A stretch of DNA of 64,000 nucleotides from Talaromyces rugulosus. Its lineage: Eukaryota; Ascomycota; Eurotiomycetes; Eurotiales; Trichocomaceae. The stretch is from the NCBI RefSeq assembly GCF_013368755.1, contig NC_049561.1:7209915-7273914 (forward strand), given 5' to 3'. Below, piece by piece: positions 825 to 57,237 of the stretch. The notes beneath the pieces were generated by a model that did no database searches, had not been told where the DNA came from, and worked only from the letters and a program-made list of their open reading frames with translations. Position 1 is the stretch's first letter. Each line of letters starts with the position of its first letter. The position numbers and the translations under genes were made by a program.

Positions 825-1272
825 GAAATATTCCGACCATAGCCATGGCTTGCTGTAGTGGAGGTAGGTTCATTGAGCTGATTGTGTGATCGTCGTCCTC
901 ATGGTATTGATCTTCAACGTGCTCTGTTATTGCCATCTCCTTGAGCCCTTGTGTCGTATTTTGCTCCTGGTCTTGATCTCTATTCTGAGCCTGTAACTTT
1001 TATGATTGAGTATCCTTCTTATTTCAACGCCCGAGAATACGTACAAGTTGAGTCTCTAAGCGCTGTACTTCTGCTTGCAGGCTCTGGACCTCGTTCGTCT
1101 CTTTAGTCTCGCTAATACGTTGTGATCTACGTTGTGCTCTCGGTTTTGACTTCCGGCTCAGCGCCGTATGTGTGCAATCCGTCGCATAGTTGATGCAGTT
1201 CGAGCAACGAGGTTTCTGTCCATCGCACTTAATTTTGCGAGTGTAACATAGATCACATGCCTTCCACACCAT
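715..1272 (-). pseudogene. Truncated Zn2Cys6 transcription factor
   Basis: Exon 1 (1272-1045) encodes a binuclear zinc cluster, CDLCYTRKIKCDG..P.CSNC......C, followed by basic residues and a short heptad-like segment (residues about 62-76). A 54-nt intron (1044-991, GTACGT donor, ACAG acceptor) joins in phase 0 to exon 2 (990-715). Exon 2 reads through an acidic linker into the start of the fungal-specific regulatory domain: LPPLQQAMAMVGIFLNTYN, then LPLFHADTLL. The spliced product is 167 residues, against 400-700 for the family, and stops just after the PLFH motif. Its last codons overlap the dehydrogenase scrap on the other strand, so truncation by rearrangement is likely. It could still make a DNA-binding peptide, but I treat it as a broken gene. 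It lies 2.9 kb from the UstYa-type genes and may once have regulated them (inference). Confidence 0.6.
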
Positions 1273-1860: not shown

Positions 1861-3036
1861 ATGTCGGCCATAGGCAATCAAGGCGGTGGCGTTGTTCGTG
1901 CGCTGCTGGGCTCTGGGTTAACTGGGGGCAACCTATGGCTTATTCGGACCCTGACACGAGACCCAAATTTGGCTAACGCGAAGAACTTGCTAGCTGCCCA
2001 CCAGACCATTGACAACTGTCTCACTCTCGTCACCGGGCACGTGCATGATAAGACTTCTCTCTAAGATGCTTTCGCTGGCGCTTATGGTGTCTTCGCTATA
2101 ATATCTGAATCTTATCCTGGGAGAGTTCTGACGAAGAAAGAAGAGATGCAGTATGAAATTGAAGTGGGCTGTAATATTGTCTTGGCAGCTGAAGAGTGTG
2201 GTATCAAGCATTTTGTTTAAGTAGCTTGCCGGACATGTTCAAGATAATAGGAGGACGTTTTCTTAATATTTACCACATGAATAACAAACATATAATTGAG
2301 CAGAGTGCCAGAGAAAGGCTCAGCGGGTTGACTTGCCTCATTCCGGGTTCGTATCCTTCGGGAAATCCAGCAGTCATGCATGTGTTACTCACAGCAAGCT
2401 CTGTGTATAGGTTTTTCTTATACCCACCTAAGGTGGCCTCAGTATTGCCAACGCCGAGGTAAAGTTGGCTGTAGGCAGTTTAGAAGTTATGCATGAAGGC
2501 TGATTAATTTACTAATCCAATAGCCGATGGAGTCGTTCAGTTCCGTATTCCAATCCCAGGTGGTCAGAGTATGCAATGGACTGACCCGATTCATGACATG
2601 GGCATCTTTGCAGCGAGTGGGTCCATTTGTGCCACCATAAGTAGGATGTGCCCAAACTAGTTTAATGGACAGTGGCTAACTATTTTCCTCTACTTTGGAG
2701 GGGTGTTTAACTTGGGTATCCAAAAAACCCATGGAAAGTCGTATCTTGTCTTAGGCCCTCGGAATCACCGCCGATGACATGGCCAAGACGTTTACACGGG
2801 TAACGGGCGAGGCAGCAGTTCACGAGCCGATTTCTGCCGAGGAATTTGCGGAGTTGGCGGTCCCATTTGTTGGGCCAGCTTTCAAGGAAGACGCCAAGGA
2901 AATGATGGAATGGGCCGCTGTGATGCCGGCGGACAAGATTTGCTACAGCGCCTTTGATGCCGATCAGGATCATTCTGTACAGAATCTAGGCCTGTCAGCA
3001 ACTTCCTTTAAGAGCTGGCTCTATCGTACTAGCTAG
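1861..3036 (+). pseudogene. NmrA-like NAD(P)-binding protein, frameshifted
   Basis: NmrA-family proteins are atypical short-chain dehydrogenase-like proteins acting as redox sensors or as NAD(P)H oxidoreductases. Pieces of one such protein lie in order here. GNQGGGVVRALL (1870s) is the nucleotide-binding loop. WLIRTLTRDP follows, then an in-frame TAA at 2062-2064. After it come DAFAGAYGVFAI and the segment ending CGIKHFV with a TAA at 2217-2219. A frame change leads to SSLPDMFKIIGGRFLNIYHM..K..IE (2220-2330), then PIPGGQSMQWTDPIHDMGIFA (about 2556-2618), YLVLGPR (about 2735), another frame change, and ITADDMAKTF to the C-terminus at 3036. At least two stops and two frame shifts break the gene. 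The order is complete, so this is decay in place and not a fragment. The start chosen is the ATG at 1861. Confidence 0.85.
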
Positions 3037-4156
3037 ATGGGGCCGACGTGAAAATATGAAAAAAAGATGACGAAATTTGGCGGGTCAAGTGAAAATGTGC
3101 ATAAGATACGAGCTATATTATAAGCCAAAAAAAAAAAAGACATCTAGGCACAACTATCAACTTGGCAGGCCGATATATCCACCCTATGTGTGAAGGTAAG
3201 GTTCGAAGAGCGTGATTATATAGTAGTAGTAGTAGTAGTAGTCCTACTACTAATATTATTATTATAATATTATAAATTTATTTATTTAATTTAATTTAAC
3301 AAGACTAACTTACTATATTTTTATATTATAAAATATAAATAAATAATATAAGTAGTGCAGTAAGAAACCACTGCATTGGACCCTCGGAAGGGTAGTTTCC
3401 CCGGCCACCGAGAACCGAGGTTTTACGTATGTACGCAGCAGACAGCAGACGACAGAGACAGAGAAGTGAAGACTTCTAGTGAATTGAATTGAGATTAAGA
3501 CTATTGCTTGAGGTTCTGTATGCATTCTGCCTGTTGCAAGTAAGTATCAGTTCGACAAACACCCTGCCACTGCTCACACTGGCCCATTCCACGGGGCGGT
3601 CATATCTTCCACCACTGTAGTTAATCAAAATAGAAAGATAATATTTAAAATTGTATTATAATTAATAAAAATAATAATTTGTAATATTATATTGTTAAAA
3701 TTTTAAATATAAAAAAAGAAAAAGAAAAATTCTACATAAAAATATTTTATATAGATAAATAATAAAATGTGGTATATAATCGTGCCACCTGCGCATCCAC
3801 CGCTCCCGCTTACATGCTAAGCTCTAGGCTTAGCCCCACTGCCTTAGGCATCCACCTTCCGACCTGCCGACCATCACACACCACTAGAAACAGCGCTGTA
3901 GGCATCATAAGCATCATAAGCATCATAAGCATCATAAGCATCATAAGCATCATAAGCAATGATTGCTGAAGGACCCGTTGTGACAACCGGCAAAAATAAG
4001 AACTAATGGTGTTGTATTGGCCTGTTAGTTAGAATTTGGGTAAGTATTCAAATGTTGCTTTCGGCGGACATTCTAGTAATGGACTCGGTGCAATATATGT
4101 AGGTTGGAGCCGCTTATATTTTGTCAACAATTCCAAGATCGGCGTGGTGTTCGCTG
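3037..4156. other. AT-rich spacer with microsatellites
   Basis: No gene is recognised. A run of tag/tac triplets lies at about 3221-3248 and is followed by long A/T stretches (3250-3330, 3630-3765). The interval separates the NmrA relic from the end of the UstYa-type gene. Confidence 0.5.
3897..3957 (+). repeat. 9-bp tandem repeat (gcatcataa)
   Basis: Six to seven head-to-tail copies of a gcatcataa unit. They create an open frame of repeated Ile-Ile-Ser, which I attribute to the repeat and not to a gene. Confidence 0.9.
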
Positions 4157-5286
4157 CTATTGTACGGGTTTCCTTTTCGGCGACTTAGTATCATGTTGTG
4201 GCTTTGAAGATGTGCAAAAATCCCTACCATATATCGGATGCCTGAGGAGATCATGCTCGAAGGGATCAAATGACCGCTGTCCCATCCAATTCTCAAGAGG
4301 CTCCCACTTGACACATTTGTGCTTCCCGTGATCTCTTGCGACCGGATAGGGATGGCTGGTGTCCGATGTTAGCGCAAAAACAAACATATATATATATATA
4401 CATATATAGTAATTGTATAACCTACCTATTCGACCAATATAATGGTATGAGAGTGGTATCCAGGTTGCACTGGACATACTGCCTTAACCAGTCGAGACAA
4501 TGCTCTATAGTCAGGTCAGCAAGAAGCGACATTTTCTGAGAATCTCTCTTGACTCACCTGTATGATGTTTTAGTAGTCGGAAATCATTGTCGGATAAATC
4601 TTTGTAATAATGATCTTGATGCATATAATGATGTAATCTTTCCACACAGTGCAGACCGTGGTAAACCGCAACCGTACCGAAGTATCCAGACCCATCAGAA
4701 AGCATGACCAAGTCGTCATTTCCTGAAAATTGGCCGAGCTCATCTGGTTGTATCTTTACGTTTTGATCTATGGCCACGTTCTATTAGTCCATTTGTGTTC
4801 AAATACGATGTGATCTGACATACACTGCAGCAGACTTTCCCACGCAATGTCGAGCTCAGCTCTCGGCTCACCGTTGAATGCTGTCGGCTTGTCCGGATTC
4901 ATCGTTCCATCGGAAAGAAATATTGCGCTGAGTTCGAATGGACGCTCTTCATATCCAATTATATCCCGTACTGGAGCTTTCGAGAGATCTCCGCTGTTAG
5001 TAAACCCTACGCAGCACAAACCTCATGGGTGCTTACAGGACGCATATTGAGGGCCATGGGAATATCTTGAGGCTATCCAGTTTGTGTATTCAACGCAGAT
5101 GACCACATTGAGAGCAATTAAGAGGGCATGGGCAGTTGTCGCATAGATTCGAGTTTTCTGTTGTCGACTGCGTCGGTGGGCTTGTGTGTGGCTCTCGACT
5201 AGAGGATCAGATACCGAACCGTTGATGGATTCACAGTCGTTTGTGTCAGGCAACTCTCCCATATCTAGAGAGGTATACTTTGCCAT
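4157..5286 (-). CDS. UstYa-family (DUF3328) oxidase-like protein, 5 exons
   Basis: UstYa-type proteins carry two HxxHC motifs. They catalyse oxidative steps, including macrocyclisation, in ribosomal cyclic-peptide (dikaritin) pathways, and also act in other fungal pathways. I place exons at about 5286-5037, 4988-4824, 4767-4558, 4504-4426 and 4355-4157, all in compatible phases (about 300 aa, family-typical). Seen: an N-terminal cytosolic part with acidic residues; a membrane segment at about residues 53-70 (ALLIALNVVICVEY); the entry motif PVRDIIGYEERPF; FNGEPRAELDIAWESLLQ; the first motif YHGLHC in exon 3; the second, HTEHCLDWLRQYVQC, created only by splicing exon 3 to exon 4; and the C-terminal HPYPVARDHGKHKCVKW. 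Introns 2-4 have strong donors (GTATGT, GTGAGT, GTAGGT). The first acceptor is uncertain (GGAG near 4989 or AAAG near 4978). I start at the ATG at 5286 because the 38 residues upstream are low-complexity. No break is seen. It is divergent from the next gene. Confidence 0.85.
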
Positions 5287-5838
5287 CGATGGCAACTTTG
5301 GTCCTGAGAACGAAAATGAGAACTGTATTCGAGGTAGTATAGACTGTATTCGAGGTAGTATAGAGAAGAATGGAAGTTGAGAAGGATCAAACGGCCACAT
5401 CTTGCGAAACGTGGAGAGGATTAACTGAATACAGTGCCATCCACATATTGGGTGTAATCAATATTAACGAAGAAAATAGTAATTTCCTTACGGAGCAATG
5501 ATAATAACAATAAGCATTATGATCTGTTGATGGTGATGTCCCATATTATTGCTTATCTTGCACATGAAATTTCCGTAAGCGCTTACAGAGTAAGTATTTC
5601 TATCGCTTTGACCTGTCAAGCCCAATGCAGTCAGCCCATTCTTTTAGTCTCATTGGGGGAAAAGATCTCTTTGGAGATCAGAAGTATTATGATTTGCATC
5701 CCTGTCAACGCTTAATATGTGTGTTTCTTCCAACAGAGAAGAACAAAGTAGGCTTTCCAGTAATTTCACCATTGACCTACGAAAACCGACCCCTTTCAAG
5801 TAAATTTGACCTCAGATTTATTGCATATCGCAGCCAAA
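5287..5838. promoter_or_regulatory. Shared divergent promoter of the two UstYa-type genes
   Basis: The two HxxHC-protein genes start 553 bp apart in opposite directions with nothing coding between them. A bidirectional promoter would let them be co-regulated, as is usual inside a biosynthetic cluster (inference). A short imperfect duplication, gactgtattcgaggtagtat-like, lies at about 5322-5362. Confidence 0.5.
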
Positions 5839-6537
5839 ATGGATTTGTCTACAATCCCCTTCTTGGCCAAGGGCCAGGAGAGCACGGATGAGGAGGAAAT
5901 GCCCTATGAAGAAACGGCCACGCAGTCGCCTGCCTGTTTTACCAAACAGCGCCGGAAGCCATGTATATACTTTACAGCCCTAATGTTTATCGTCGTTCTC
6001 GTACTGTTCGGAGTCATATCTATCTTACGCCCCAACTCTGCCGCACCCGATGTCTACAGACCAGAGACTCTCGGGGCCCTTAATATATGCGATTGCGGTT
6101 CCGCGGTCCACGAAGCACTCTCCAGAAACTGCGTATATGACACGCTCGCCACCGCATGGCTGCCCCCGCACTGTCGAGACGATGAGCTTACTGCGGAATT
6201 CAAGCGTTCAGGTCCTGGAGCAGACGGTTCCTGGCCTTATTTTGCCGACCCGGAGGGGAAGATCCCTGTGAACAAGTCTCACATTGCTGCACTTGGTGAA
6301 ACGAATGGGATGTTTTGGGCAATGAGAGAGTGGCATGTTGCGCATTGCCTCTTTTACTGGCAAAAGTACATACGTATGAGAGACACGGGAGTAGTGATGG
6401 AGCGGAGGTTTGACCAAATTGCGCATGTGAAGCATTGTGGACGTTTGGCGATGCATGAGCACAATCATTCAATGTTAATCGAGGTCAATGTGGTGATGAA
6501 TTCGGATATCGATCATGGCGATGAGCCCGGTCCCTGA
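5839..6537 (+). CDS. Second UstYa-like HxxHC protein, single exon
   Basis: A 232-residue frame from the ATG at 5839, preferred over the ATG at 5806 because of its context (aaaATGG). Order: an acidic N-terminus; a basic stretch QRRKPC; a membrane segment (FIVVLVLFGVISIL, about residues 48-62); a Cys-containing segment NICDCG; a conserved region AWLPPHCRDDELTAEF; a SGPGADGSWPYFAD loop; the first motif WHVAHCLFYWQK; and, about 30 residues on, the second motif HVKHC. This is the single-exon sister family that often accompanies UstYa genes. Two HxxHC motifs downstream of one membrane anchor suggest an enzyme facing the secretory lumen, where a precursor with a signal peptide would pass. It lies between the first UstYa-type gene and the repeat-containing precursor. 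Its exact reaction cannot be read from the sequence. Confidence 0.8.
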   Translation: MDLSTIPFLAKGQESTDEEEMPYEETATQSPACFTKQRRKPCIYFTALMFIVVLVLFGVISILRPNSAAPDVYRPETLGALNICDCGSAVHEALSRNCVYDTLATAWLPPHCRDDELTAEFKRSGPGADGSWPYFADPEGKIPVNKSHIAALGETNGMFWAMREWHVAHCLFYWQKYIRMRDTGVVMERRFDQIAHVKHCGRLAMHEHNHSMLIEVNVVMNSDIDHGDEPGP

Positions 6538-7513
6538 TTTGAAAAGAGACAACGGGGGCCTATTTTGCTGATTGACCACTATGGTCAATATTTAGCCATG
6601 TCTGTTCTCAATCATTAATTACGTGTAAGCTTCTAACAATCTACGGAGCGTAATATGTATAAAGTTGGAAATAGAAATACAATTGGACTGTGTACTATGG
6701 CCCTGGCACAGAAGTGCTATACCAGCAAAGCACAGAAAAGAAGAACGGAGCTCTTTTTCTTAATCTCACAATACGACTCGTTAGTACTGAAAAAGCTTTA
6801 TTTATTAACGTATTTTACTACTGAACGGGTCAGACTCTTGAATGGGACACTCCTCCAATTTCATACTCACTCATATTACTTACTCTTTATCTACAAATGC
6901 AACCGTTGGCGACTAATAAACATAAGCACTAGGCTGAATATGTTGACTGTCGGAGAGTAAGCGCAAAGATAAGTAAGGACTACTAATAACTTGTAATCAT
7001 AGGTTCGGAATCGGTCTGATTATTATGGTTTTCAAAAGCATGCAACATAAGCACTTTAACCATCTCCGTTGGGGAACGGTTAAGACAGTGGTAGGAACAG
7101 TACTTGACTGGGAAGCCTTGTGAAAAGCTCAATATACAGAATAAACATGGGTTTGTTATGGGTGGGTACTATCGACTATTATAATCAGTCTGAAAATATC
7201 CTAAGTGGAAGACCATGTAAGCTAGAATCTAGTTATATGCCAGCCTATCCTGCAGTAGTCCGAGAATGCAAGTAGTAATCTTAGTCTGACGACCATAATC
7301 AAACAGGTAATCTCTGTCAGAGAATATTCACAATCTAGTAATCAAATTATGCTAATTTTAGTCTAGTGTCCACCTACCTAGCAATCGAGCATGATATAAA
7401 ACCGCATTTAATTCGCATCGATCTGATCATTTCCCCCCTTTCCACAAACACATCACATAAACATCAAAATCTCAATCTCTTCTATTCTTCAAGATTACTT
7501 CAACTCTTGCAAA
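6538..7513. other. Intergenic region upstream of the precursor gene
   Basis: No coding sequence is recognised; a 101-codon frame at 6655-6960 lacks any supporting feature. The last 120 bases hold the likely precursor promoter and a CT/CA-rich leader. Confidence 0.45.
7395..7400 (+). promoter_or_regulatory. TATA box of the precursor gene
   Basis: TATAAA lies 114 bases upstream of the precursor ATG and is followed by a pyrimidine-rich then AC-rich leader (ttcccccctttcc, acacatcacataaacatcaa). That arrangement is typical of strongly expressed genes for secreted proteins in ascomycetes. Confidence 0.5.
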
Positions 7514-7817
7514 ATGCGTCTCAGCCAGACCATCTACCTCGCACCCCTGGTGGCCCTGCTTGCGCAGGGCCTGCCGCTCAGTGGTAAGTAATCAGAATAT
7601 GCTTTACTTGATGAGACTATATTGATCTTGGGGTCCAGATGCTGCCGCCGAGACTGGCATCATCGTGCGAGCTGCCGACGACGAGGCTTGGGCGTTTCAA
7701 ACCGATGGAGCTGCCAAAGTTGAAAGCAAGCGAGCTGCTGACGATGAGGCTTGGGCGTTTCAAACCGATGGAGCGGCCAAAGTTGAAACTGAGCGAGCTG
7801 CTGAAGTCGACGCCTGA
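7514..7817 (+). CDS. Candidate dikaritin-type RiPP precursor, 82 aa, two repeats
   Basis: Exon 1 (7514-7583) encodes a signal peptide: MRLSQ, a hydrophobic core with APLVALLAQG, then a small-residue cleavage region. A 55-nt intron (7584-7638; GTAAGT...CCAG) joins in phase 1 to exon 2 (7639-7817). The spliced product has a 23-residue signal region and a short acidic spacer ending IIVR. Residues 35-55 and 56-76 are near-identical 21-residue repeats, followed by six residues. Each repeat begins AADDE, holds WAFQTDG as the most distinctive block, and ends in a charged segment. Repeat 1 ends SKR (Kex2-type); repeat 2 ends TER. This is how UstA-like precursors are built: signal peptide, core repeats, acidic spacers and Kex2 sites. 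Two UstYa-type genes lie within 3.4 kb. Neither exon looks significant alone, so gene finders could miss it. The core is not one I recognise. Which residues form the mature ring is inference; Trp and Phe two residues apart would suit oxidative cross-linking. Confidence 0.8.
7671..7796 (+). repeat. Two 63-bp direct repeats in the precursor
   Basis: Units are 7671-7733 and 7734-7796. They differ at only a few positions: synonymous third bases in the Ala, Asp and Ala codons, plus two changes in the last codons that turn Ser-Lys-Arg into Thr-Glu-Arg. The amino-acid core is identical in both, so copies are either recent or held alike by selection or conversion. Confidence 0.95.
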
Positions 7818-8977: not shown

Positions 8978-11900
8978 ATGGCAAACGCTTTGCTCTGCCC
9001 CCCGGGCAGCGACAATAAATGGGGCCCCCGCGTCAACCCCGATTGTCGGGCTTTTGACTTCACTGTCTTATTCCAGGATGTCTTCTTCAGCGTGTTCCCA
9101 GCATCGTTGTTTTTGATCGTTGTGCTGCCGCGACTACAATTCCTGCGCTGTGCCCCGGTGAAGCTGACATCCTACAGACTCGTCGTCTGCAAACTCGTAC
9201 GCATATACCACTGCTTTACTGAATTGCGTAAACTGCTACATTTCCCACTAACAATACATGCCAAAGTCACTCCTCGCTATCTTGTTCGCCCTGCAGGTTG
9301 TCTTCACTGCATTCCAAACAACAACGTCAGCCATCCATACAAAATTGTCCCTGACATCTGGACTCCTGAATATAGTTGCTACATTCGCAGCGGCTTTCCT
9401 GTCTTTTGCAGAAGATCAGCGTACTGTGCGACCATCAGATGTTCTTGTGGTCTACTTTTCGGTTGCAAGCATTGTCTACATGCCCCGGTTGCGTACGCTA
9501 TGGCTCATTCCATCTATCACAGCCCACCAAAGTCTATGGACTGCCGTCTATGTCTTCACTATAGCAAGTCTAATTGCAGAGTCGGCGAGGAAGACAAGGT
9601 TCCTACGGCGGCTGTATCAGAGCGTGACCCCGGAACAAGGTGGTGGGTTTTGGAGCCGGTGTCTTTTTATCTGGGTCCTCCCCTTCTTCCATCAGGGTTA
9701 TTCCAAACCACTACAGCTTGAAGACATGCCCGAAGTTGATGACAGCCTCGCTGGAGAAACCGCAGAGCAAAAGCTTCAAGCAGCATGGGACATAACCACT
9801 CCTGACCGACGACGACGTCTGCTCTACGCTACGTTTCGCGCGTACGGATGGGCCTTTCTGTCCGGCATTCCGCCTCGTCTGGCCTTGACGGCACTCACCT
9901 TTGCGCAGCCATTTCTCATTACGGTGCTTGTGGATTGGATGGGAACAACTGCAGCACCGGCAAACTATGGTCCGGCGCTTACAGGAGCTGTTGTGCTTGT
10001 ATATTCTGGTATGGCGGTGTGTGTATTCGTTGCACGAAACCTGGTTTCAAGCATATTAATCATTCAAGGATAGGTTTCAACAGCAATATACTGGCGTCAA
10101 ACGTATCGCTTTATCACAGCTATTCGTGCGGGGCTTGTCTCTATTATTTACACCGCAACGACGGGGTTGAAGGGCATCCAAATCAAAGACATGGCAGCCA
10201 TCACTTTGATGGACACTGACGTAGAGCGGATAGCCTCAGATTTCAAATCCATCCACGAGGTTTGGGCATCGGCCCTGGAAGTTGGAGTTGCGTTATGGTT
10301 GTTAGAGCGGCAGGTCGCTATCGCGTGTTTGATTCCAGCTGTCATATGTCTGGTGTCAGTACTAGCTACTATCCCGGTGTCGCGGAAATCAGGGAATGCT
10401 CAACGCAGATGGATCGAGAGGATACAGAAACGATTGGCGGCTACCTCGCACATGCTGGGTGAAATGAAAGCCGTGAAAATGCTCGGGCTTACAGATGTTA
10501 TGTTCACGGTGGTTTCAAGACTGCGAGAGATCGAGATCAAAACTTCAGAACGGTTTCGGAAACTTCTTTTATGGCAGATTTCTCTTTGTAAGAGGTTCTG
10601 TTTTAAATTTTGAGTAACTCGTGGACTAACGTTAGATAGCTAATATTCCTACGGATTTTGCGCCCTTTGCGACCTTTACAACATATGCTGTGATCTCGGT
10701 TGTAAAAGCAGACGATTCGCTAAACCTGGCACAGGCATTCACTTCTCTTTCTCTGATTTCCCTTCTCACGAGCCCTTTGCTTACCTTCTGTCAAGCCTTG
10801 CCTTCCATCGTCCAAACGATCGCCTGCTTCGGGCGCATTCAGGAATACATCCTCGATAAACATGCGCTAGCTCCTCTGGAAACTCACGCCGAAGGCGTCT
10901 CAGGGGGTGCGATGGAACTGCGAGAATATAATCGATCCACTGCATCTACCTCGCCTTTGGTATCATTCGTCAATGCGGACATTTCCTGGTCCCCGGACAC
11001 CCAGGTTGTGCTGCATGATCTAAATCTGAACATCGCCCAAGGAATCACCGTGCTTATCGGCCCCGTCGGGTCGGGGAAATCAACCGTGCTAGAAAGTATT
11101 CTCGGTCAAACATGCGTTAAGCGCGGTTCATTAAATTCAACACTGACGAAAGTCGCGTATTGCTGCCAGACGCCATGGATTACAGACGGCACCATCCAAG
11201 ATAATATCACGGGAGGAGCTGAAATTGACGACAGTTGGTATCAATTTACTATTTCTGCTTGTGGTCTGGAAGCAGACATGACGGCACTTACGAAGGTGAT
11301 ATGCCCAGTAGGACTGGGAGCAAAGGAGTGTTTCTCAGCGGAGGACAAAAACAACGGGTTGTGAGTTCCTTGTTCTAGTCGCTGATGTGAGAGTATTGTT
11401 TACGGGCGGAGATTCATTGATGATCGCAGGCTCTTGCCCGTGCTGTCTATTCCAAGAACCAGGTCTTGGTTTTGGACGATGTTTTTAGCGGACTGGATTC
11501 AAAGACGATCAGTGTGATATCTCGTCGTCTCTTTGGCAGGGAAGGCTATTTCAAGGCCACTGGACGATCGTTGATTCTGGCCACGCATACGCGTAACTAA
11601 ATTGATTCGTGCTGCTAAATAGACTACTAACGATCATCAGAGCAAATCCTTTCTCATGCAGACAATATCATCGTTCTCGACGACGGCAGGGTAGTCGACC
11701 ATGGACCGTCCACGGAGATTCTGGCACGAAGGTCAGATATTATTGCGGGATCCCTCATGCCCGTGCACAATTTGCTCCTGTCATCACCTGTAGATGAACC
11801 CCTACCTTGCGAGAAAGCGGACGAAACCCAAGTCTTCGTCGGTGACGCAGACAGTATACATTCCAACCCTACCCCTACAGCACAAAAGGGCGGTACCTGG

Positions 11901-14044
11901 TCTGTGTACATGTACTACTATCACAGTGCGGGATTTGTCTCCGTCATCCTTCTCGCATTTTTCTCTGGGCTTGAAGCATTTGGGTCCAGCTTTGCAAGTA
12001 AGAGACATCCCCTGCCAATCCGATTACAAAAGATCTAAAGACGTGTTTCTAGCTGTATGGCTTCAATGGTGGACAGAAACAAACTCGCAGCAGCCAAATA
12101 AGGAGCTGTGGAAGTACTTAGGGGTCTATGCCTTGCTCTTCGGCTTATCTTTTCTGGGCGTCGTCGCGGGTTGTTGGTGAGTTAGACGAGTCGTTTTGTT
12201 ACCATGGTAGAGAGAGCTGACAGATGCTAGGGTTTTCCTTATCAATATCATTAGGACCACCGGATTGAGTCTACATCGTAATCTTTTACAGACGACTCTC
12301 GAGTAGGCCCCTCCGAGGTCAATGCATTGGAAATACCGTCCTGGCAATTCACAGGTCACCATTCTCTTTCTTCCACAGGGTAAGCACGGGGTCGATAACG
12401 AATAGGTAGCAATCTCACATAATTGCCCTCGGTCTTCCAGGTCTAACCAATATTTTAGATTCAGCCAGGATATGCAATTGGTCGATATGGAACTCCCTAT
12501 GAACGGAGCCCAGTTTGTCACAGGCACAGTCCACGTCCAGTGTGTGTTTAGGAGTTTGTCTACTGACCTCTTAGCAATAAACAGGCGCCTTCTCGTGTTT
12601 TGCCAAGTTGATCATTCTCTGTATCCTTGGGAAGTATCTTGCAGTATCCGTTCCATTTGTGCTGGGGATCCTATTCTTCATCCAGCGGTATTATCTGCGG
12701 ACATCCCGCCAAGTTCGACTCGTAGACATCGAAGCCAAGGCTCCTCTGTACAACCATTTCATCGAGACTATCCACGGTCTCTCGACCATCCACGCCTTTA
12801 AATGGGAGTTTCGATTTCGGGAACAGGGCAAAGCATACCTGAATGATTCTCAGAAGCCTTTTTACATGCTCTTCTGCATTCACATATGGCTACAATTGGT
12901 CCTGGACTTGATTGTGGGTGCGATTACAGTCATCATCGTCGCTACTATGACATCCATGAGAAACCGCTTTACTGCTGGGTCCATTGGTGTTGCGCTAAAT
13001 CTTGTTCTCACGCTCAATCAGTCCCTTGCCCAGATGATAAAGTCCTGGACGACGTTGGAGACATCCATTGGCGCCGTATCGCGCGTTCGGGATTTCGTCG
13101 GAGATACGCCTTCAGAGTCAGACATTTTAATTACACCGTCTCGCGTACGACCCGAATGGCCTTCTCATGGTGTCATTGAATTTATAGGTGTTTCGGCTTG
13201 TTACAAGTATGTTGATTATACTGAACCAGACCATCAAAACAAAAAAAAAATAGAAAACTCACCCATAATCCACAGTTCTACAAGCGTACCTGTACTTCAA
13301 AATCTATCTCTGCGAATCCGAGCAGGAGAAAAAGTCGCCATCTGTGGGCCTTCCGGTAGTGGGAAAACATCATTCATCCTAGCTCTTCTCCAGATGATCG
13401 ACGTCCAACAAGGCCGCATCACAATAGACGACGTGGACCTGTCAACAGTGCCGCGAAACACGCTTCGCACACGGCTGAATACTGTCCCTTCAGACCCATT
13501 TTTCATGCCTGGCACGGTCCGATTTAACCTGGATCCGCATGGGGATGCGACGGATGAAAGTATCGAGTCTGCTATCAACAAGGTCGGCCTGTGGAAGCGC
13601 ATCAGCTGTGAAGGAGGACTAGATGCCGAATTTTCCGTGTCGGACTGGTCTTCTGGAGAGAGACAGTTGTTAGCACTGGCGCGAGCACTCAATGTGCGCA
13701 GCCGTATCTTGATCCTAGACGAAGCCACCAGCAGGTAAGCCTGTACCAGTCGTTCACGACAGGGCTTTTATATATATATATATATATATGTAGATGTAGA
13801 TCTAACGTTTAATAGCGTCGACTGGAAAACCGAGGCCGTCATGCAAGACGTCATCGATACAGAATTCGCGTCCTCGCAAACAGTAATCGCTATTCTACAT
13901 CGTTTACGACACATCGATCGATTCGACCGAGTTGTTCTGCTGAAGAGCGGGCAGATTGTGGAATGTGATAGTCCACGAGTCTTGCTTGCGCGGAACTCGG
14001 AGTTCCGTAGACTGGTCATGTCGTTGGAAAACAGTGAAATTTGA
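8978..14044 (+). pseudogene. ABCC-type (MRP/YCF1-like) transporter, frameshifted
   Basis: A nearly complete full-length ABC exporter split by many short introns. Exon 1 (8978-9196) has the fungal ABCC start CPPGSDNKWGPRVNPDC and a TMD0 segment. Exons 9267-10020, 10084-10587 and 10640 onward carry TMD1 (FIWVLPFFHQGY; YWRQTYRFITAIRAGLVS; LKGIQIKDMAAITLMDTD) and NBD1 with Walker A GPVGSGKS (about 11060). The signature LSGGQKQR near 11337-11360 is readable only after a frame change between about 11305 and 11325, where roughly five extra bases sit. NBD1 Walker B follows (VLVLDDVFSGLDS), then TMD2, in which exon 12229 onward meets an in-frame TAG at 12304-12306 after LLQTTLE. NBD2 has Walker A GPSGSGKT, signature SSGERQL, Walker B ILILDEATS and an LHRL switch region in the last exon ending at 14044. 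One frameshift and one stop make a functional product unlikely unless these are read errors. Its place 1.2 kb from the precursor suggests a former exporter for the cluster (inference). Confidence 0.8.
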
Positions 14045-28487: not shown

Positions 28488-31400
28488 TAGACTTCCGCAT
28501 AACCCATTTTGGGTCGAAGGTCACGACCCAAAACCCAACCCGGTCTGGGTCTGGGTCGAAGCTTCATAACCCAGGCCCAACCCAGGCCCAGTCACTGGGG
28601 CCCCAGAAAACCCAGAAATAACCCATTTCGACCCAGTTCCGGCATAAATTATGGTATAATTATTTAAATTACACGCCGTCATTTTTCCCGTTTTGATGTT
28701 TACACTGAAATAGAACACTTTCTACCAGGAAATCAATGAAATCTTTAAGGAATTTCTTAAATATGAAAAGGGCATATCGAATTCACTGTTGCTTATCTTT
28801 TACAATGCCTCGTTCTACATGGAAAGGCCGTATCTACGGTGTGGTGGGAAAATGCGCATCTATCGTCGTACCGATGTAGTTATATATGTTAAACATATAT
28901 TCACACATTATACATTTCTACATGAATCAAATAAATATTTCGGGGAATATTAGAATGTATTGAACTGTTTAAATGTTCTACTGTTGTCAGAATATCAAAC
29001 CGTTCTATTGATAATTCCGACGCTTGTCAGAATACCTAGATATCTACATTTAAGTCGAAGGCTTCAACTTTGAAAGTAGGACGGGATGAATTTTTTTGGC
29101 TAGGCTTGGGGAAACTGGGGTGGGAATTGGGGTTTGACTGGGGTTTGACTGGGCCTTGACTGGGTTCTCTGGGTTGTCTCTGGGCTATTACTGGGTTATT
29201 ACAGGGATAATGCATTAGGTCCACATAATATCAGTATACCAAACCAATGAATGAGAGGACAAGGATTCATTCCATCTGACATATCAATTAACTTGACTTT
29301 CTCATTTTTCTCATTTTTCTAATTGTAGTGCTTTTCCATCTCAGTATGTTATTCATATTTTCCCTTTACCTCTCCCCTTCGTGATGCTTACATATCTTTT
29401 GTCATGTCTCAAAGCCAGCTTTCCGACTTCACATCGTCACTTTATAGTGGAGATATTGATGATCTTCCATCTCTCTCAACGCAACAAATCACTCCATCCG
29501 CAAGTCATCATACAATTGATTCTGGCTTCCACCGGCCAGATGACCTCCTCGTTCCTCCTTCTTTGATACGTGTTGGACCTGATCGCCGGAATAGGTTTGT
29601 TCTCTACGACAAGATGTCACACAACGAGTTTATCGACTGGTGGTTACAGACGGACTATGGGCGGAAAAGAAAGATCAACTGGGATTCACATCGCCACACG
29701 GTGATCTGGAATAGCTACAACCAGGTTGCTGAGGGTGTAGATGGCACACCAAAGGTCATGTGCAAACGCTGTGGAAAGATTCTTGAGCATCCTTATTCCC
29801 TGAGTCTGAACAGTTCCGGCAAAGCGCAGTATCACGGCACATCAACAATCCAGAAACATCTGAAGACAGCTGGGTGCCTACGGTCGGAGAAGGGAAAGAA
29901 GGCAGAGATTACAAAGTTTCTCCAAAAAGAGGTATGTTTTAGACTGTGAAACGATACTTAGATACTAATCTATGGTATGTCTTCCTAGGGCGAAATCTCA
30001 GCAGATATACCCTTTTTACAAGAGGACTGGGAAGACGATATCTTGCAATTCCTGACTCTCAATCGGCTACCATTCCACCTCATCGAGCATCCATCATTTA
30101 AGCGGATTATCTACAAAGCGCGTTCTGCTCTTGTCGCTCCAGTGATCCCGTCTGCCGATACAATCCGTCGCCGATTAGGGAGCTTGGTCAAAGACCGGCA
30201 GCAGCGGGTTCTTCGTACGCTACCTGCTGGTTCAAAGATATCTATTGCGCTTGACTGTTGGACATCTCCATTCTCGCAGGCATTTATGGCGATCACTGGT
30301 TATTTTATCGACAGTGATTGGGTTTATCGTGAGGTGCTTCTTGGTTTTAAGCCACTTCACGGTACACATACGGGGTCTTACTTAAGTGGTGTTCTGATGG
30401 AAACCCTGGTAGAGAACAACATTGAAGATAGAGTGTTTGGGCTGACCACAGATAATGCATCAAACAATAAGGCATTAGCTGCGTCTCTCCAACAAGCTTT
30501 ATCAGATGGTGTCATTATTACACGAATACCATGCCTTGCCCATGTTATCCAGCTCAGTCTTAATCAGCTTCTTGTTCGGATTAAGGCAGTTCCATCCAAT
30601 GAATCCGCGGAGACAAAGTGGACAGAGAGTCAGTCCAGGCTGGTTCAAGAGAATGCGAAGCAATGTCAGATCTCTTCTACATTGAACAAAGTACGTTATC
30701 TTGCAATTTATATAAATGCAAGCCCCCAGCGCCGAGAGACATTCTACAATCTTCAGACAACAAACGTCAAGATTGTTCCCATCCAAGATGTGAAAACACG
30801 ATGGAATTCTACATTTCTTATGCTTCGCCGGGCCAAACGGCTACGTGCTATCTTCTCTTTATTTTGTGCAGAGTATGACTGTGAGGAGATGCTACTTAGC
30901 GAGCACGAGTGGCGCCAAATTGACTATCTTCTCTGTATCACTGAGCCGTTCTTCGATTATACAACCCAGTTATCAAAGACTCGAGACGTCACTGCCCACT
31001 ATGTGTTCAAGATTTACAACCGACTTTTTGATCATCTTGAGCGATCACAGACACAGCTACAACGGAAGCGTGTCCCATGGAAGAAACAAATGCTGGACGC
31101 ACTGGACGCTGGACGGACCAAGCTTGATGAGTACTACGCTCAAACCGATACTATTCGAGGGCATATCTATGCCGTCAGTACGATGCTTGCACCAGTGAAT
31201 AAATTTAGATTCTTTCTCTCTAGCGATTGGGATCAGAAGTGGCGAGATATCTATCGCAACGCCTTTCAGCAAGCCCTCATCCCATACCAAGCGCAAGTAA
31301 AAAGTCAAAGCCAGGATGCATACAGCTCTCACACTGCAGCTCAACCAAGCTCAAGGCTGGAGGAGATGCTTGATGGAAAGGATATACAGCCACGAGCGAT

Positions 31401-32301
31401 GACTGATGAAATTAGTCAATATCTTGATAGTGGTCAGTGATTATCCACTACCTATGTATTGCTAGTTCACTAATCTTAAACTAGATACTGTTTCTGTTGG
31501 GCCACTTATCTTTTGGAAAGAGCATCAATATCGCTTTCCAGCTATTGCCGCCCTTGCGCGAGATGCGCTCTCCTTCCCAGCCACTGGTGCAGGAGTGGAA
31601 CGCCTCTTTAATACTGCTCGAGATGTTTGTCACTATCGTCGTGGGAGAATGAAGACCGAGACGATTGAGGAGTTGATGATGTTTCTTTGTACATCCAAAT
31701 TCGATATAGAGGCACAGGAAGCAAAGCTTCTTGAAAAATTCTTCTCACAGGATGAGCTTGAGGCGGCGAAAGAAGAAAGGGAAGAGAAGCTTAACAAGGA
31801 TGAGATCAATCCAATTAGTGATACAGAGGAGCAAGAGGATGAGCTAGAAAATGGACCAGAGAATGAAATGGAGGATATAGGACTAGATACGACTTCCTTA
31901 TCTGCTGCTGAACCAGATAGTCCAGGCTCACCGTCATTACCACCAACCTGTACACAGACACGGGTATCAGGGCGGAAACGTAAGAGCCGGGAAGATGATA
32001 TATTTGAATATCATTAGTTAAATATGTAAATTCTAAATAAAGGCTTTTCTTTTACCTTTTTTCCTAATAAATCTGTAAAGTAAATACTCAAAAATACAAC
32101 TACAAAATGCATAAGTTATGCAATTAGAATTCTTGGTATATTTGTTATGTTTGTAACCCAATTTGGGGCCCCAGGCCCAGTACTGGGTTACCCAGTCCAA
32201 CCCAGACCCATTACTGGGTCGACATGTTTGACCCAAAACCCAACCCAGTCTGGGTTGGGTCTGGGTTGGGTCTGGGTTTTACTGGGTCGTGCGGAAGACT
32301 A
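28488..32301 (+). mobile_element. hAT DNA transposon, 3.8 kb, apparently intact
   Basis: The ends are TAGACTTCCGCA and its near-complement TGCGGAAGACTA (12-bp terminal inverted repeats, one mismatch), flanked by the 8-bp duplication ATTATAAC, diagnostic of hAT elements. Both subterminal regions (28500-28640, 29100-29210 and 32150-32290) are crowded with GGGTC/GACCC and CCCAG motifs in both orientations, probably transposase-binding sites. It carries one complete transposase gene. It sits inside a heavily mutated helicase pseudogene yet shows no such mutation itself, so it arrived after the host repeat had decayed. Confidence 0.95.
29404..32017 (+). CDS. hAT transposase, 834 aa, three exons
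   Basis: Exons 29404-29931, 29989-31432 and 31485-32017 join in phase (introns of 57 and 52 nt with GTATGT and GTCAGT donors). Exon 1 carries a BED-type zinc finger: CKRCGKILEHPYS, then HGTSTIQKHLKTAGC. Exon 2 carries the RNase-H-like catalytic core: ISIALDCWTSPFSQAFMAIT (first acidic residue in ALDCW), FGLTTDNASNNKALA (second Asp) and RIPCLAHVIQLSLNQLL, followed by the helical insertion domain. Exon 3 has the C-terminal dimerisation domain SFPATGAGVERLFNTARDV..YRRGRMKTETIEELMML-like, with the conserved Glu before RLFN. A long acidic tail ends in basic RKRKSRED, a likely nuclear-localisation signal. No stop or frameshift is seen, so the element may be active. Confidence 0.92.
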
Positions 32302-49607: not shown

Positions 49608-51797
49608 AACCAAAATACCTGAGTGTAGTGAACTGTACTACAATCACAAACTCTATTTTAGGGTTATTTTTGCTAGTTAAATCTAGGGTTAGTGTCATAG
49701 ACTACAATCACGAACTTTTGTAGACTACAATCAGGTTTTGTCGCCTGATCGCCCTCAAAATTGGACCAGTTATTTTCATACCATTAAATCGCTCGTCACC
49801 GGAGAATGAGCGATATTCAAGTTATCGTGCCGCTGTCGTGGTTAATTGAAAAGGACGGGTTTTTCAGGTTGTTTTGGTTGGGGTGCGACGGGCGCTAGTG
49901 GCCAGGATATATCGCGTGCGCGCCATGACGGATCGTCAGGGGTTCTGACGTATTAGGGCATGGTTATATATAATCATATATTGTCCATACTACAGATTAC
50001 CATTACTATTATAGATAGCATTAGTATTTATCACATTTACCAGGGCAATTCATTATTATCATCATGTATAACACGTTTTTCGAGTAACTAGAGGAGTTTC
50101 CTATTGTGGTATGCCGGGAGTGTCGCCATGCCGTGTGGCCTAGCTAGATTGAAACGCATTTGCGTTGCGCGCACCGTTATGTGTCTACTATCATGTGCGT
50201 CACATTGGCCGATGATGTTTGTACATGGCCTAATATCGCGCATGATCTGATTGAGTTGAATATCCCGGCTATCCGGACCATAGTGATCCAACAGTTGGTC
50301 GCGTTTGTTGATGGATATTGATGTCAATTGAGTTCCTATTCGTGCTAATATATATGCACTACCATGCCTATTATGTGGCAGTATTGGATCAAGCATTATC
50401 AGTGGTCCTGGATCTGAAAGATTGGACAGCCTACCCACATGGAGCAGAAACAGATTCAGTATGAGCAGGATTAGGCATGCTGTCCCGTTCAATGCCAGCG
50501 GTTGTTTCCTGTTAAGGCCAACTCGCAGTATTTTGCGATTATTCCCGAGACGGATGAAGCTGTGGCCCCCGATGGTGATGCGTGCGAGACGTTAATCTAG
50601 AATATGCAGGCGCATTGGCGCAGCGTGCAGGAGGCCGCGGATCGGAAGATCCAGGCTGGCCAGGTCGACGAGGCCAACCCGTGGTTACGGCGAACCGAGT
50701 GGGTGAAGTATTTGGGGGAGTTCGACATCCCCGATTTGATATAGAGTGTGAGCCTACCCCCCGCGGATATCGATGGCCAGCCGTCTATTGAGCCGGAAGC
50801 CCACGCCATTTGGACGGCTATGGCGTGGTTGGCTACGATCAGCCAGTTGTCCGTGATTCACCAGATTGGGGTGTTTGTGCGGTTGGAAGCCATCTGGACT
50901 GAGCAGCATTAGACGCGGTACACCCTGTTAGAGGCGTATTAGGATGAGGAGTTAATTGTGAAGCAGGTGCGGCCGTGGTAGGAGATGTTGATGTTTTTTT
51001 GGCGTACGCAGCAGCTGTACGAGTGGACCAGTCCTTTGTATCGATTTATGCGACGACAGCGTATGGTATGGGAGCGGTTGGTTGACGCGGTGCGGATTCC
51101 ACCCATCTGCTAGGTGAGCAAGGGTAAGGTGATCATGCGATCCGGGGCCACGCGGGCACCGTGGGTGGAGGAAGAGGAGGAAGAGGAGGGGGAGGAGGAG
51201 GAGGAGGAGGAGGAGGAGAGAGATACCATGTTGATTGATTCGTTGTCCGTGGACAGTAACGAACCCGATTTTTTCAATGATAGGAGTGACGGGATAGAGA
51301 AGACGATGGAGGAGACGGCTATGGGGAGAACGGTTGATGTGGATGCTATATTTGATATTGAGCGCCCCCCGGAGAATGAGGAGGAAGCCAGTAATATCAC
51401 TGTGCCGCCATTGAGCCCTGTGGAGCGGGTGTGTTTGGATTTTTGCATTGAATTGTTGAACCAGCGCATCATTTGATGGGAGTATGACAGCGCATTAGTG
51501 TGTGCCGCAGCTGTATTGGGGGTTTGTGAGGGCGGTTTCCGTACGCCCGAGGATTACTCGCCTATTTTATCGCGAGTGATCAAGGTCGCGCGGTTCATGG
51601 TGGTGAAGAAAGCCGTTGAATTGAGTGACGAGCCCGAGGAGGAGGATGTGGCTGAGTTGCCCAGTTCCATGGACTATACGGATTGGGACAGCGTATATGG
51701 TGGATCGCCGCTACCTAGTTCGCCAGGCCGCAAAGGATGTTTGCAGTGGGTGACCTAGATGATGGATTGGTTCATGGTGCGCGGATCGCAAGGCCCT
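49608..51797 (+). pseudogene. Truncated OrsD-RecQ helicase copy A
   Basis: Begins with one 47-bp repeat and a leader, then runs through the 5' third of the helicase gene, ending at ggatcgcaaggcccta, equivalent to about 58594 of the open copy. It includes the OrsD-type zinc-finger region (VVCRECRHAVWPS, then a stop) and the Glu-rich tract. Many TAA, TAG and TGA codons occur where the open copy or copy B has CAA, CAG or CGA. Every difference from the open copy that I compared is C-to-T on the + strand. Confidence 0.85.
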
Positions 51798-52032
51798 AAC
51801 CAAAATACCTGAGTGTAGTGAACTGTACTACAATCACAAACTCTAACCAAAATACCTGAGTGTAGTGAACTGTACTACAATCACAAACTCTAACCAAAAT
51901 ACCTGAGTGTAGTGAACTGTACTACAATCACAAACTCTAACCAAAATACCTGAGTGTAGTGAACTGTACTACAATCACAAACTCTAACCAAAATACCTGA
52001 GTGTAGTGAACTGTACTACAATCACAAACTCT
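51798..52032 (+). repeat. 47-bp tandem repeat, five copies
   Basis: The unit begins aaccaaaatacctgag and ends cacaaactct; it contains TGTAGT and ACTACA seven bases apart, a potential hairpin. Copies elsewhere: 49608-49654 (one), 53975-54068 (two), 54170-54216 (one), 56360-56453 (two). Every array starts with CTAACC or CCCTAACC at its left junction. Confidence 0.95.
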
Positions 52033-53974
52033 ATTTTAGGGTTATTTTTGCTAGTTAAATCTAGGGTTAGTGTCATAGACTACAATCACAAACTTTTATA
52101 GACTACAATCAGGTTTTGTCGCCTGATCGCCCTCAAAATTAAACCAGTTATTTTCATACCATTAAATCGCTCGTCACCGGAGAATGAGCGATATTCAAGT
52201 TATCATACCGTTGTTGTGGTTAATTAAAAAGGACAGGTTTTTCAGGTTGTTTTGGTTGGGGTACGACAGGCGCTAGTGGCCAGGATATATCACGTGCGCG
52301 CCATGACAGATCGTCAGGGGTTCCAACGTATTAGGACATAGTTATATATAATTATATATTGTCTATACTACAGATTACCATTACCATTATAGATAGCATT
52401 AGTATTTATCACATTTACCAAAGCAATTCATTATTATCATCATGTATAACACGTTTTTCGAGCAACTAGAGGAGTTTCTTATTATGGTATGCCGGGAGTG
52501 TCGCTATGCCATGTGGCCCAGCCAGATTGAAACGCATTTGCGTCGCGTGCACCGTTATATGTCCACCACCATGCGCATCACATTGACCGATGATGTTTGT
52601 ACATGGCCTAACATCGCGCATGATCTGATTGAGTTGAATATCCTGGTCACCTGGACCACAGTGATCTAACAGTTGGTCGTGCCTGTTGATGGATATCGAT
52701 GTTAATTGAGTTCCTATTCGTGCCAATATATATGCACTACTATGCCTATTATGTGGCAGCATTGGATTAAGCATCATCAGTGGTCCCGGACCTGAAAGAT
52801 TGGATAGCCCACCTACATGGAGCAGAAACAGATTCAGCACGAGCAGGACCAGGTATGCTGTTCTGTTCAATGCCAGCGGTTGTTTCCCGTCAAGGCTAAC
52901 TCGCAGTATTTTGCGATTATTCCTGAGATGGATGAAGCTGTGGCCCCCGACGGTGATGTGTGTGAGATGTTAATCTAGAATATGCAGGCGCATTGGCGCA
53001 GCGTGTAGGAGGCTGCGGATCGGAAGATTTAGGCTGGCCAGGTTGATGAGGCCAACCCGTGGTTATGGTGAACCGAGTGGGTGAAGTATTTGGGGGAGTT
53101 CAACATCTCTGATTTGATATAGAGTGTGAGCTTACCTCCTGCGGATATTGATGGCCAGCCATCTATTGAGCTGGAAGCCCACGCTATTTGGACGGCTATG
53201 GTGTGGTTGGCCATGATCAGCCAGTTGTCCGTGATTCACCAGATTGGGGTGTTTGTGTGGTTGGAAGTTATCTGGATTGAGCAGCATCAGACGCGGTACA
53301 CTCTGTTAGAGGTGTACCAGGATGAGGAGTTAATTGTGAAGCAGGTGTGGCTGTGGCAGGAGATGTTGATGTTTTTTTGGCGTACACAGCAGCCGCACGA
53401 GTGGACTAGTCCCTCGTATCGATTCACGCGACGACAGCGCATGGCATGGGAGCGGTTGGTCGACGTGGTGTGGATTCCACCCACCCGCCAGGTGAGCAAG
53501 GGTAAGGTGATCACGCGATCCGGGGCCACGCGGGTACCGTGGGTGGAGGAAGAGGAGGAAGAGGAGGAGGAGGAGGAGGAGGAGGAGGAGGAGGAGGAGG
53601 AGGAGGAGGAGGAGGAGGAGGAGGAGGAGAGAGACACCATGTCGATTGATTCGTTGTCTGTGGACAGCAACGAACCCGATTTTTTCAATGATAGGAGTGA
53701 CGGGATAGAGAAGACGATGGAGGAGATAGCTATAGGGAGAACAGTTAATATGGATGCCATATTTGATATTGAGCGCCCCCCGGAGAATGAGGAGGAAGCC
53801 AGCAACATCACCATGCCACCATTGAGCCCCATAGAGCGGGCGTGTTTGGATTTTTGCATCGAATTGTTGAACCAGCGCATTACTCGACAGGAGTACAATA
53901 GTGTATTAGTGTGTGCCGTAGCTGTATTAGGAGTTCGTGAGGGTGGTTTCCATATACCTGAGGATTACCCATCT
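51798..53974 (+). pseudogene. Truncated OrsD-RecQ helicase copy B
   Basis: Five tandem 47-bp repeats lead this copy. It ends earlier than copies A and D, near residue 370 of the helicase. It differs from the open copy by both C-to-T and G-to-A, unlike copies A and D. Some codons mutated in A, D and the 5' part of the open copy are still wild-type here, for example CAA at the eighth codon and CAG in WPSQIETHL. The GAGGAG tract is expanded to more than 20 Glu codons. Confidence 0.85.
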
Positions 53975-54169
53975 AACCAAAATACCTGAGTGTAGTGAAC
54001 TGTACTACAATCACAAACTCTAACCAAAATACCTGAGTGTAGTGAACTGTACTACAATCACAAACTCTATTTTAGGGTTATTTTTGCTAGTTAAATCTAG
54101 GGTTAGTGTCATAGACTACAATCACGAACTTTTGTAGACTACAATCAGGTTTTGTCGCCTGATCGCCCT
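53975..54169 (+). repeat. Short leader fragment (copy C)
   Basis: Two 47-bp repeats and about 100 bp of leader, cut at gcctgatcgcccta where the next unit begins. Confidence 0.9.
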
Positions 54170-56359: not shown

Positions 56360-57237
56360 AACCAAAATACCTGAGTGTAGTGAACTGTACTACAATCACA
56401 AACTCTAACCAAAATACCTGAGTGTAGTGAACTGTACTACAATCACAAACTCTATTTTAGGGTTATTTTTGCTAGTTAAATCTAGGGTTAGTGTCATAGA
56501 CTACAATCACGAACTTTTGTAGACTACAATCAGGTTTTGTCGCCTGATCGCCCTCAAAATTGGACCAGTTATTTTCATACCATTAAATCGCTCGTCACCG
56601 GAGAATGAGCGATATTCAAGTTATCGTGCCGCTGTCGTGGTTAATTGAAAAGGACGGGTTTTTCAGGTTGTTTTGGTTGGGGTGCGACGGGCGCTAGTGG
56701 CCAGGATATATCGCGTGCGCGCCATGACGGATCGTCAGGGGTTCTGACGTATTAGGGCATGGTTATATATAATCATATATTGTCCATACTACAGATTACC
56801 ATTACTATTATAGATAGCATTAGTATTTATCACATTTACCAGGGCAATTCATTATTATCATCATGTATAACACGTTTTTCGAGTAACTAGAGGAGTTTCC
56901 TATTGTGGTATGCCGGGAGTGTCGCCATGCCGTGTGGCCTAGCTAGATTGAAACGCATTTGCGTTGCGCGCACCGTTATGTGTCTACTATCATGTGCGTC
57001 ACATTGGCCGATGATGTTTGTACATGGCCTAATATCGCGCATGATCTGATTGAGTTGAATATCCCGGCTATCCGGACCATAGTGATCCAACAGTTGGTCG
57101 CGTTTGTTGATGGATATTGATGTCAATTGAGTTCCTATTCGTGCTAATATATATGCACTACCATGCCTATTATGTGGCAGTATTGGATCAAGCATTATCA
57201 GTGGTCCTGGATCTGAAAGATTGGACAGCCTACCCAC
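56360..57237 (+). pseudogene. Leader and broken N-terminal OrsD part of the open helicase copy
   Basis: Two 47-bp repeats and the leader are followed by an ATG at 56863 that is in frame with the long helicase frame 375 bases downstream. The intervening codons encode the OrsD/C2H2-like finger CRECRHAVWPS..ETHL....H but contain several stops, the first after seven codons. This stretch shares the mutated bases of copies A and D. It therefore looks like a mutated 5' end joined to an unmutated gene body near 57258. Confidence 0.8.

Follow-up and report, generated by a model that had tools for sequence, protein, structure and literature searches.

The last 64 kb of contig C1 of Talaromyces rugulosus (C1:7209915-7273914, in a contig of 7,273,914 bases and a genome of 35.8 Mb on six contigs), called here the window, contain a compact locus that is likely to be a small UstYa-type locus for a ribosomally synthesized and post-translationally modified peptide (RiPP). 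Three genes constitute this locus and are all open within 3.7 kb: a precursor gene with two peptide repeats, gene 1, encoding a membrane protein of the UstYa family, and gene 2, encoding a membrane protein of another, unnamed family. A transporter gene lies alongside. The genes are arranged in the order gene 1 (-), gene 2 (+) and precursor (+), with 552 bp between the divergent genes 1 and 2 (5287..5838) and about 1 kb between gene 2 and the start of the precursor. Two observations strengthen the RiPP interpretation: UstYa loci elsewhere in this genome share this build, and relatives of genes 1 and 2 are paired in other fungi. A small modified peptide, of a kind omitted by repeat-counting surveys, is the probable product of the locus, which represents a probable and hitherto undescribed variation on UstYa-type RiPP loci, cluster decay being the chief alternative. 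No published description of the locus or of the gene 2 family was found among the open-licence papers listed.

The precursor gene is composed of two exons on the + strand, 7514-7583, which encodes the signal-peptide-like MRLSQTIYLAPLVALLAQGLPLS, and 7639-7817, which encodes the repeats and the stop, separated by a GT...AG intron of 55 bp (7584-7638). The spliced product of 82 aa, proposed earlier by a sequence-only reading of this DNA, is letter for letter equal to the public model TRUGW13939_02456 (P0001), a protein that implies the same intron; its signal peptide is a hydrophobic N-terminus judged by inspection only. The two near-identical 21-residue repeats and the KR site announced by that reading were recovered as well. 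Tandem Repeats Finder detected two 63-bp copies (period 63, score 234, 92% matches) followed by a partial third: copy 1 (RAADDEAWAFQTDGAAKVESK, 21 aa) extends over 7668-7730 and copy 2 (RAADDEAWAFQTDGAAKVETE, 21 aa) over 7731-7793, both on the + strand. The sole dibasic site, a Kex2-like KR, is found at 7728-7733 (+), and the equivalent positions are occupied by VR before copy 1 and by ER after copy 2. The presumed core, WAFQTDG, is located at 7689-7709 in copy 1 and at 7752-7772 in copy 2 (+). Between the two copies, repeat codons 1-19 show three differences, all at silent third positions, and codons 20 and 21 are changed (S to T and K to E), both residues lying beside the cleavage site, a comparison based on small numbers. 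No second copy of this precursor was detected in the T. rugulosus genome at E<=10. A repeat precursor beside a DUF3328 (UstYa) gene is one mark of dikaritin/ustiloxin-type RiPPs, and the dikaritin-type assignment of the sequence-only reading stands in this respect; neither repeat, however, contains the Tyr usual in the core of these peptides. With two copies and one KR, the precursor also falls short of the Kex2-processed repeat proteins (KEPs), for which at least three repeats between dibasic sites are demanded.

Gene 1 (4114..5286, -) encodes a UstYa-family membrane protein of 292 aa in six exons (5286-5037, 4976-4824, 4767-4558, 4504-4426, 4355-4228 and 4172-4114), with all introns GT-AG. 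This model, which has another intron 1 acceptor and a sixth exon, is favoured by the alignment with 19 relatives and by the public model P0002 (TRUGW13939_02454), and it is preferred to the five-exon gene, ending at 4157, of the sequence-only reading. P0002 omits a QYVQC...LYW stretch (QYVQCN.DTTLIP..W, around exon 4), some version of which is present in 19/19 relatives. Pfam identifies P0002 as UstYa (PF11807, E 7e-36, 124.6 bits for a cut-off of 25). In agreement with the definition of the UstYa/DUF3328 proteins, gene 1 possesses one predicted N-terminal membrane helix, a moderately hydrophobic segment near residues 47-65, and two HxxHC motifs, HGLHC at 171 and HTEHC at 203, the codons of the latter being split by an intron.

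Gene 2 (5839..6537, +) is a single exon encoding a membrane protein of 232 aa. One strong hydrophobic segment (residues 42-63) is followed by HVAHC (166-170) and HVKHC (196-200), and in this layout, with a single membrane helix near the N-terminus and a pair of HxxHC motifs, gene 2 is UstYa-like. The splice models and translations bear out in this way the early description of two divergent genes, each encoding a single membrane segment and a pair of HxxHC motifs. The protein search performed with gene 2 returned 155 proteins, gene 2 included, of which 120 were listed; one of its relatives, P0023, is 67% identical to it. In a 37-row alignment (gene 2 included), the residues C84, C86, G87, C98, D101, W107, C112, R113, D114, H166, H196, H199 and C200, among others, are invariant, H169 and C170 are conserved at 90% or more, and a signature CxCG...C.YD....W...CRD is found ahead of both HxxHC motifs. 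By its sequence, gene 2 represents a distinct, unnamed family, which appears to span several classes of filamentous fungi, to judge from the species names of the listed matches. No relative was found in viral or prokaryote contig collections or in plasmids, which says little because these contain few or no fungi, and no NCBIfam family (a prokaryote library) was assigned. Pfam gives one unrelated match, below cut-off, for P0023; PF11807 is present in P0084 alone among the 120 of 155 matches listed, a hint of a distant kinship between the gene 2 family and UstYa. AlphaFold2 models were obtained for gene 2 (mean predicted local distance difference test score 82.7) and for the gene 1 relative P0003 (73.0), and both predicted folds consist of a membrane helix, then a domain with the HxxHC motifs in two successive helices. 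Among solved structures, neither family has a sequence match and the gene 2 model has no significant fold match.

The same build was looked for at the other UstYa loci of this genome. PF11807 matches occur at 43 places, grouped by us into about 25 loci, and 14 of these besides the window were sampled, 10 being left unsampled. Repeat precursors with dibasic sites and, by inspection, signal-like starts were detected at 5 of the 14 sampled loci, and the repeat criterion at the same threshold retained none of the five control stretches (48.4 kb), even if these controls are few and include one stretch from a chromosome end and another adjoining the window. The first of these precursors, with two ALYAYI copies, is located at C6:105433-105609 (L022:9434-9610). 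Three others lie near UstYa genes: a Tyr-free precursor of the ACAAVGGGSAAAAC type at C5:3949961-3950560 (L025:6462-7061), a DLYNYK precursor at C6:4394141-4394740 (L031:7642-8241) and an ELYPAPDLGRI precursor at C4:1854694-1855212 (L035:7195-7713). The last one, beside a UstYa gene at C1:2037998-2038285 (L038:5999-6286), has seven copies with YFIG cores (GVEDYFIGADKR) and is ustiloxin-like. A repeat with dibasic sites at C6:4890915-4891274 (L030) was not counted, no signal-like start being present in the stretch shown; its inclusion would give 6/14.

Gene-2-like genes are found at three loci, in the window, at C6:106-109 kb and at C1:118 kb, and in every case UstYa sequence lies no more than about 5 kb away. 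At the C6 locus the order is UstYa (-), UstYa (-), precursor (+), gene-2-like (+), gene-2-like (+) (L022:6747-8452, L023:195-2666). The similarity between its precursor and that of the window was rejected as unconvincing, only the signal-like starts being aligned, with E-values of 1.6 or worse among the alignments listed. At C1:117-121 kb (L020:5157-9434), UstYa-like pieces are divergent from the gene-2-like gene and adjoin a large HELGHGIHDL frame, which by inspection resembles an M3-type metallopeptidase.

The association of genes 1 and 2 extends to other fungi. Counting over the 120 of 155 gene 2 matches listed, and taking the same species and a contig of equal size as the sign of a shared contig, 9 of the 19 non-self gene 1 relatives share a contig with a listed gene 2 relative. 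Four of these pairs have consecutive locus tags: Hirsutella rhossiliensis (HRG_005163/005162), Zasmidium cellare (27366/27365), Tolypocladium paradoxum (08442/08443) and Apiospora kogelbergensis (006847/006848). The other same-contig pairs belong to Nemania sp. NC0429, Nemania serpens, Echria macrotheca, Cercophora samala and Chaetomium tenue, where the sharing of a 5.4 Mb contig means little by itself. A tenth case is provided by P0014 of Aspergillus carbonarius, a single model in which a gene-2-like stretch comes after the UstYa domain, and which could reflect either a fused gene or two genes merged in the annotation. The gene 1 and gene 2 distance matrices of the window pair and nine others are correlated (Mantel r 0.57, permutation p 0.002), even if two of the gene 1 members are partial or oddly modelled and shared descent alone would also produce a correlation. 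Such pairing in other fungi suggests that the products of genes 1 and 2 probably work jointly or one after the other.

A mechanism can be proposed on this basis. The N-terminal signal would take the precursor into the endoplasmic reticulum, where cleavage by Kex2 at the KR would give two pieces with one WAFQTDG region each. The gene 1 and gene 2 proteins, anchored by a single helix with their HxxHC part in the lumen, would bind copper through four histidines, as in CctR of Talaromyces islandicus, and oxidise the core with O2. The W-A-F of this core can be superposed, in a comparison of our own, on the 1-to-3 pattern of Y-A-I in ustiloxin B, as can the Y-A-Y of the C6 precursor. Because the core is Tyr-free and W-A-F can be superposed on Y-A-I, a short peptide either cross-linked from Trp to Phe (1 to 3) or hydroxylated would be the likeliest product; lacking a Tyr hydroxyl, the core would be less likely to form an aryl ether than to undergo Trp-to-Phe bonding or simple hydroxylation. 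The product would then be trimmed by peptidases and exported. In its boldest form, this proposal makes of genes 1 and 2 a two-part copper oxidase, a canonical UstYa and a member of a Pfam-less HxxHC family paired across distant filamentous fungi, that would join Trp 1 of the Tyr-free core to its Phe 3 by a cross-link, and makes of the two-copy precursors of the window and of C6 a layer of fungal RiPPs excluded by rules of at least three repeats. Such a complete scheme is speculative and rather unlikely to hold in all its parts.

The surroundings of the locus are less well preserved. A broken NmrA-like gene (isoflavone-reductase superfamily) with stops inside is found at 1861..3036 (+); the piecewise Pfam search gave NmrA matches, in order and below cut-off, in two of its five pieces (E 0.019 and 2e-05) and nothing in the remaining three. 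An ABC transporter gene occupies approximately 8978..13735 (+), with ABC_tran (E 6.2e-26) and ABC_membrane (E 2.6e-14) in 12581-13735 and an in-frame TAG at 10071-10073, unless removed by splicing. A fragment of a Zn2Cys6 regulator (PF00172, E 7.1e-10) lies at 1024..1272 (-). Farther away, hAT-type transposase frames are located at 29989-32014, with Dimer_Tnp_hAT in 31466-32014, and frames with the same listed beginnings adjoin the C6 precursor locus (L022:2-1949). On the minus strand at 50091-58293, several frames of 167 and 180 aa recur whose listed beginnings are almost identical, pointing to copies of one subterminal element. A DEAD/Helicase_C gene is present at 57217-61845; helicase genes of this kind are common near fungal chromosome ends. 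The repeats listed for the terminal region, 63310-63814, are found again at the other extremity of C1 (L036, near C1:200-690).

Several observations weigh against the interpretation as a RiPP locus. The precursor has a single dibasic site, and its only match at E<=1 is itself (118 shared-word candidates from 5.8 billion proteins). Of the two HxxHC proteins, only gene 1 is a UstYa through PF11807; gene 2 matches neither this nor any other Pfam family at E<=1, as is the case for its relative P0036, and its profile match with gene 1 is weak (hhalign probability 2.7, E 0.017), even if both HxxHC motifs are aligned in order over 77 columns. No repeat precursor was detected at 9 of the 14 sampled UstYa loci, nor at the third locus with a gene-2-like gene (C1:112-128 kb), where neither the repeat scan nor a search for signal-like starts gave a convincing candidate. 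Seven of the 19 gene 1 relatives are on longer contigs without a gene 2 relative among the matches listed, and two more are on contigs of about 1 kb, which could not show a pair. Part of the neighbouring genes is broken, and UstYa proteins have roles in polyketide and non-ribosomal pathways as well, as stated in the accessible portion of PMC12048977.

The broken neighbours lead to the principal rival explanation, namely a decaying relic: a former modified-peptide locus having lost its cluster genes, the open frames being recent survivors near a chromosome end. This situation is doubtful, even if it deserves consideration. It would account for the stops of the NmrA-like gene and the in-frame TAG of the ABC gene, for the presence of two repeats only and for the E replacing K at the site after copy 2, and it suits the position of the window, which runs to the contig end and includes a DEAD/Helicase_C gene between 57 and 62 kb. 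Genes 1 and 2 and the precursor are nevertheless all open, the introns of gene 1 are GT-AG throughout, repeat codons 1-19 differ only silently, and few genes are needed for asperipin-2a according to the part of PMC6514808 at hand. It is also conceivable, but improbable, that the precursor is the source of a linear peptide secreted without modification, as a signal or in the manner of a pheromone, while the HxxHC genes serve another purpose. The core has Trp and not Tyr, and the available text of PMC7329392 reports a DUF3328 gene near 22% of 7878 KEPs and none near 78%; the same text places nearly all pheromone-type precursors away from DUF3328 neighbours, however, and the distance of about 1 kb from the precursor to gene 2, like the recurrence of the arrangement at the C6 locus, argues against separate functions. 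A last possibility, that the substrate of the gene pair is of polyketide or non-ribosomal origin and the repeat gene an accidental neighbour, is highly improbable. DUF3328 proteins do take part in the cyclochlorotine, astin and atpenin pathways, as indicated in the accessible parts of PMC12435403 and PMC12048977; this proposal is opposed by the proximity of the precursor and by the lack of any synthase domain among the window open reading frames scanned, which are a subset of all those of the window.

As a small RiPP locus, these three genes would offer a test case for the use by UstYa-type copper enzymes of Trp in place of Tyr. The locus also bears on the role of the unnamed HxxHC family paired with UstYa and on the number of fungal peptide loci missed by repeat-count rules. 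As the gene 2 family appears to be spread over several classes of filamentous fungi, an answer about it would aid the annotation of many genes at once.

By gene type, the neighbour list recalls the asperipin-2a set of Aspergillus flavus, partly in ruins. This set, as given in the part of PMC6514808 available, consists of aprA, aprY, aprT and aprR, that is a precursor, a UstYa-type oxidase, a transporter and an isoflavone reductase, and lists no tyrosinase. The window likewise has a precursor, a UstYa gene, an ABC transporter gene and an NmrA-like remnant, the last two being possible counterparts of the asperipin-2a transporter and isoflavone reductase. Because this four-gene set lists no tyrosinase, the lack of this enzyme, noted by the sequence-only reading, is no objection to the RiPP interpretation. 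The two systems differ in their cores, FYYTGY with Tyr ethers in asperipin-2a and the Tyr-free WAFQTDG here, and the window has two copies only, a further HxxHC protein from a different family and an NmrA-like gene that is broken. With ustiloxin B the locus shares a signal-peptide-like start, an acidic stretch before the core, a KR site and two HxxHC-type helpers. UstA, however, has 16 YAIG copies and the tyrosinase UstQ is used; UstYa and UstYb are mutual homologues in the accessible text of PMC6514808, whereas genes 1 and 2 are not clearly homologous. In ustiloxin (YAIG) and phomopsin (YVIP), Tyr at residue 1 is cyclised to Ile at residue 3 according to the portion of PMC7329392 available, and the cores of ustiloxin, phomopsin and asperipin all use Tyr, unlike that of the window. 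Tyr is usual and not universal: Y is present in 65.6% of the DUF3328-linked repeats, and a Trp core is not unprecedented because 20.5% of the repeats near DUF3328 genes contain Trp, both figures being those of the same portion.

The KEPs resemble the window precursor by their secreted appearance, near-identical repeats and Kex2-like site. The definitions found in the parts of PMC7329392 and PMC6339444 at hand require at least three repeats, and for this reason the window and C6 precursors, otherwise KEP-like, fall outside both of them. CctR, the DUF3328 protein of cyclochlorotine in Talaromyces islandicus, is described in the available part of PMC12435403 as a membrane-anchored homodimer that uses O2 to hydroxylate a C(sp3)-H bond; its HxxHC(x)nHxxHC is the site of a binuclear copper centre, each monomer carrying two copper ions. 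Genes 1 and 2 have the same single membrane helix and HxxHC(x)nHxxHC arrangement; they differ as two dissimilar paired proteins from a homodimer that acts on a non-ribosomal peptide. A further parallel comes from the genome itself, at C6:102-109 kb: even if its core contains Tyr and its gene-2-like proteins are 18 and 23% identical to gene 2, this locus also combines a two-copy precursor (DATALYAYI repeats and KR) with two UstYa genes and two gene-2-like genes.

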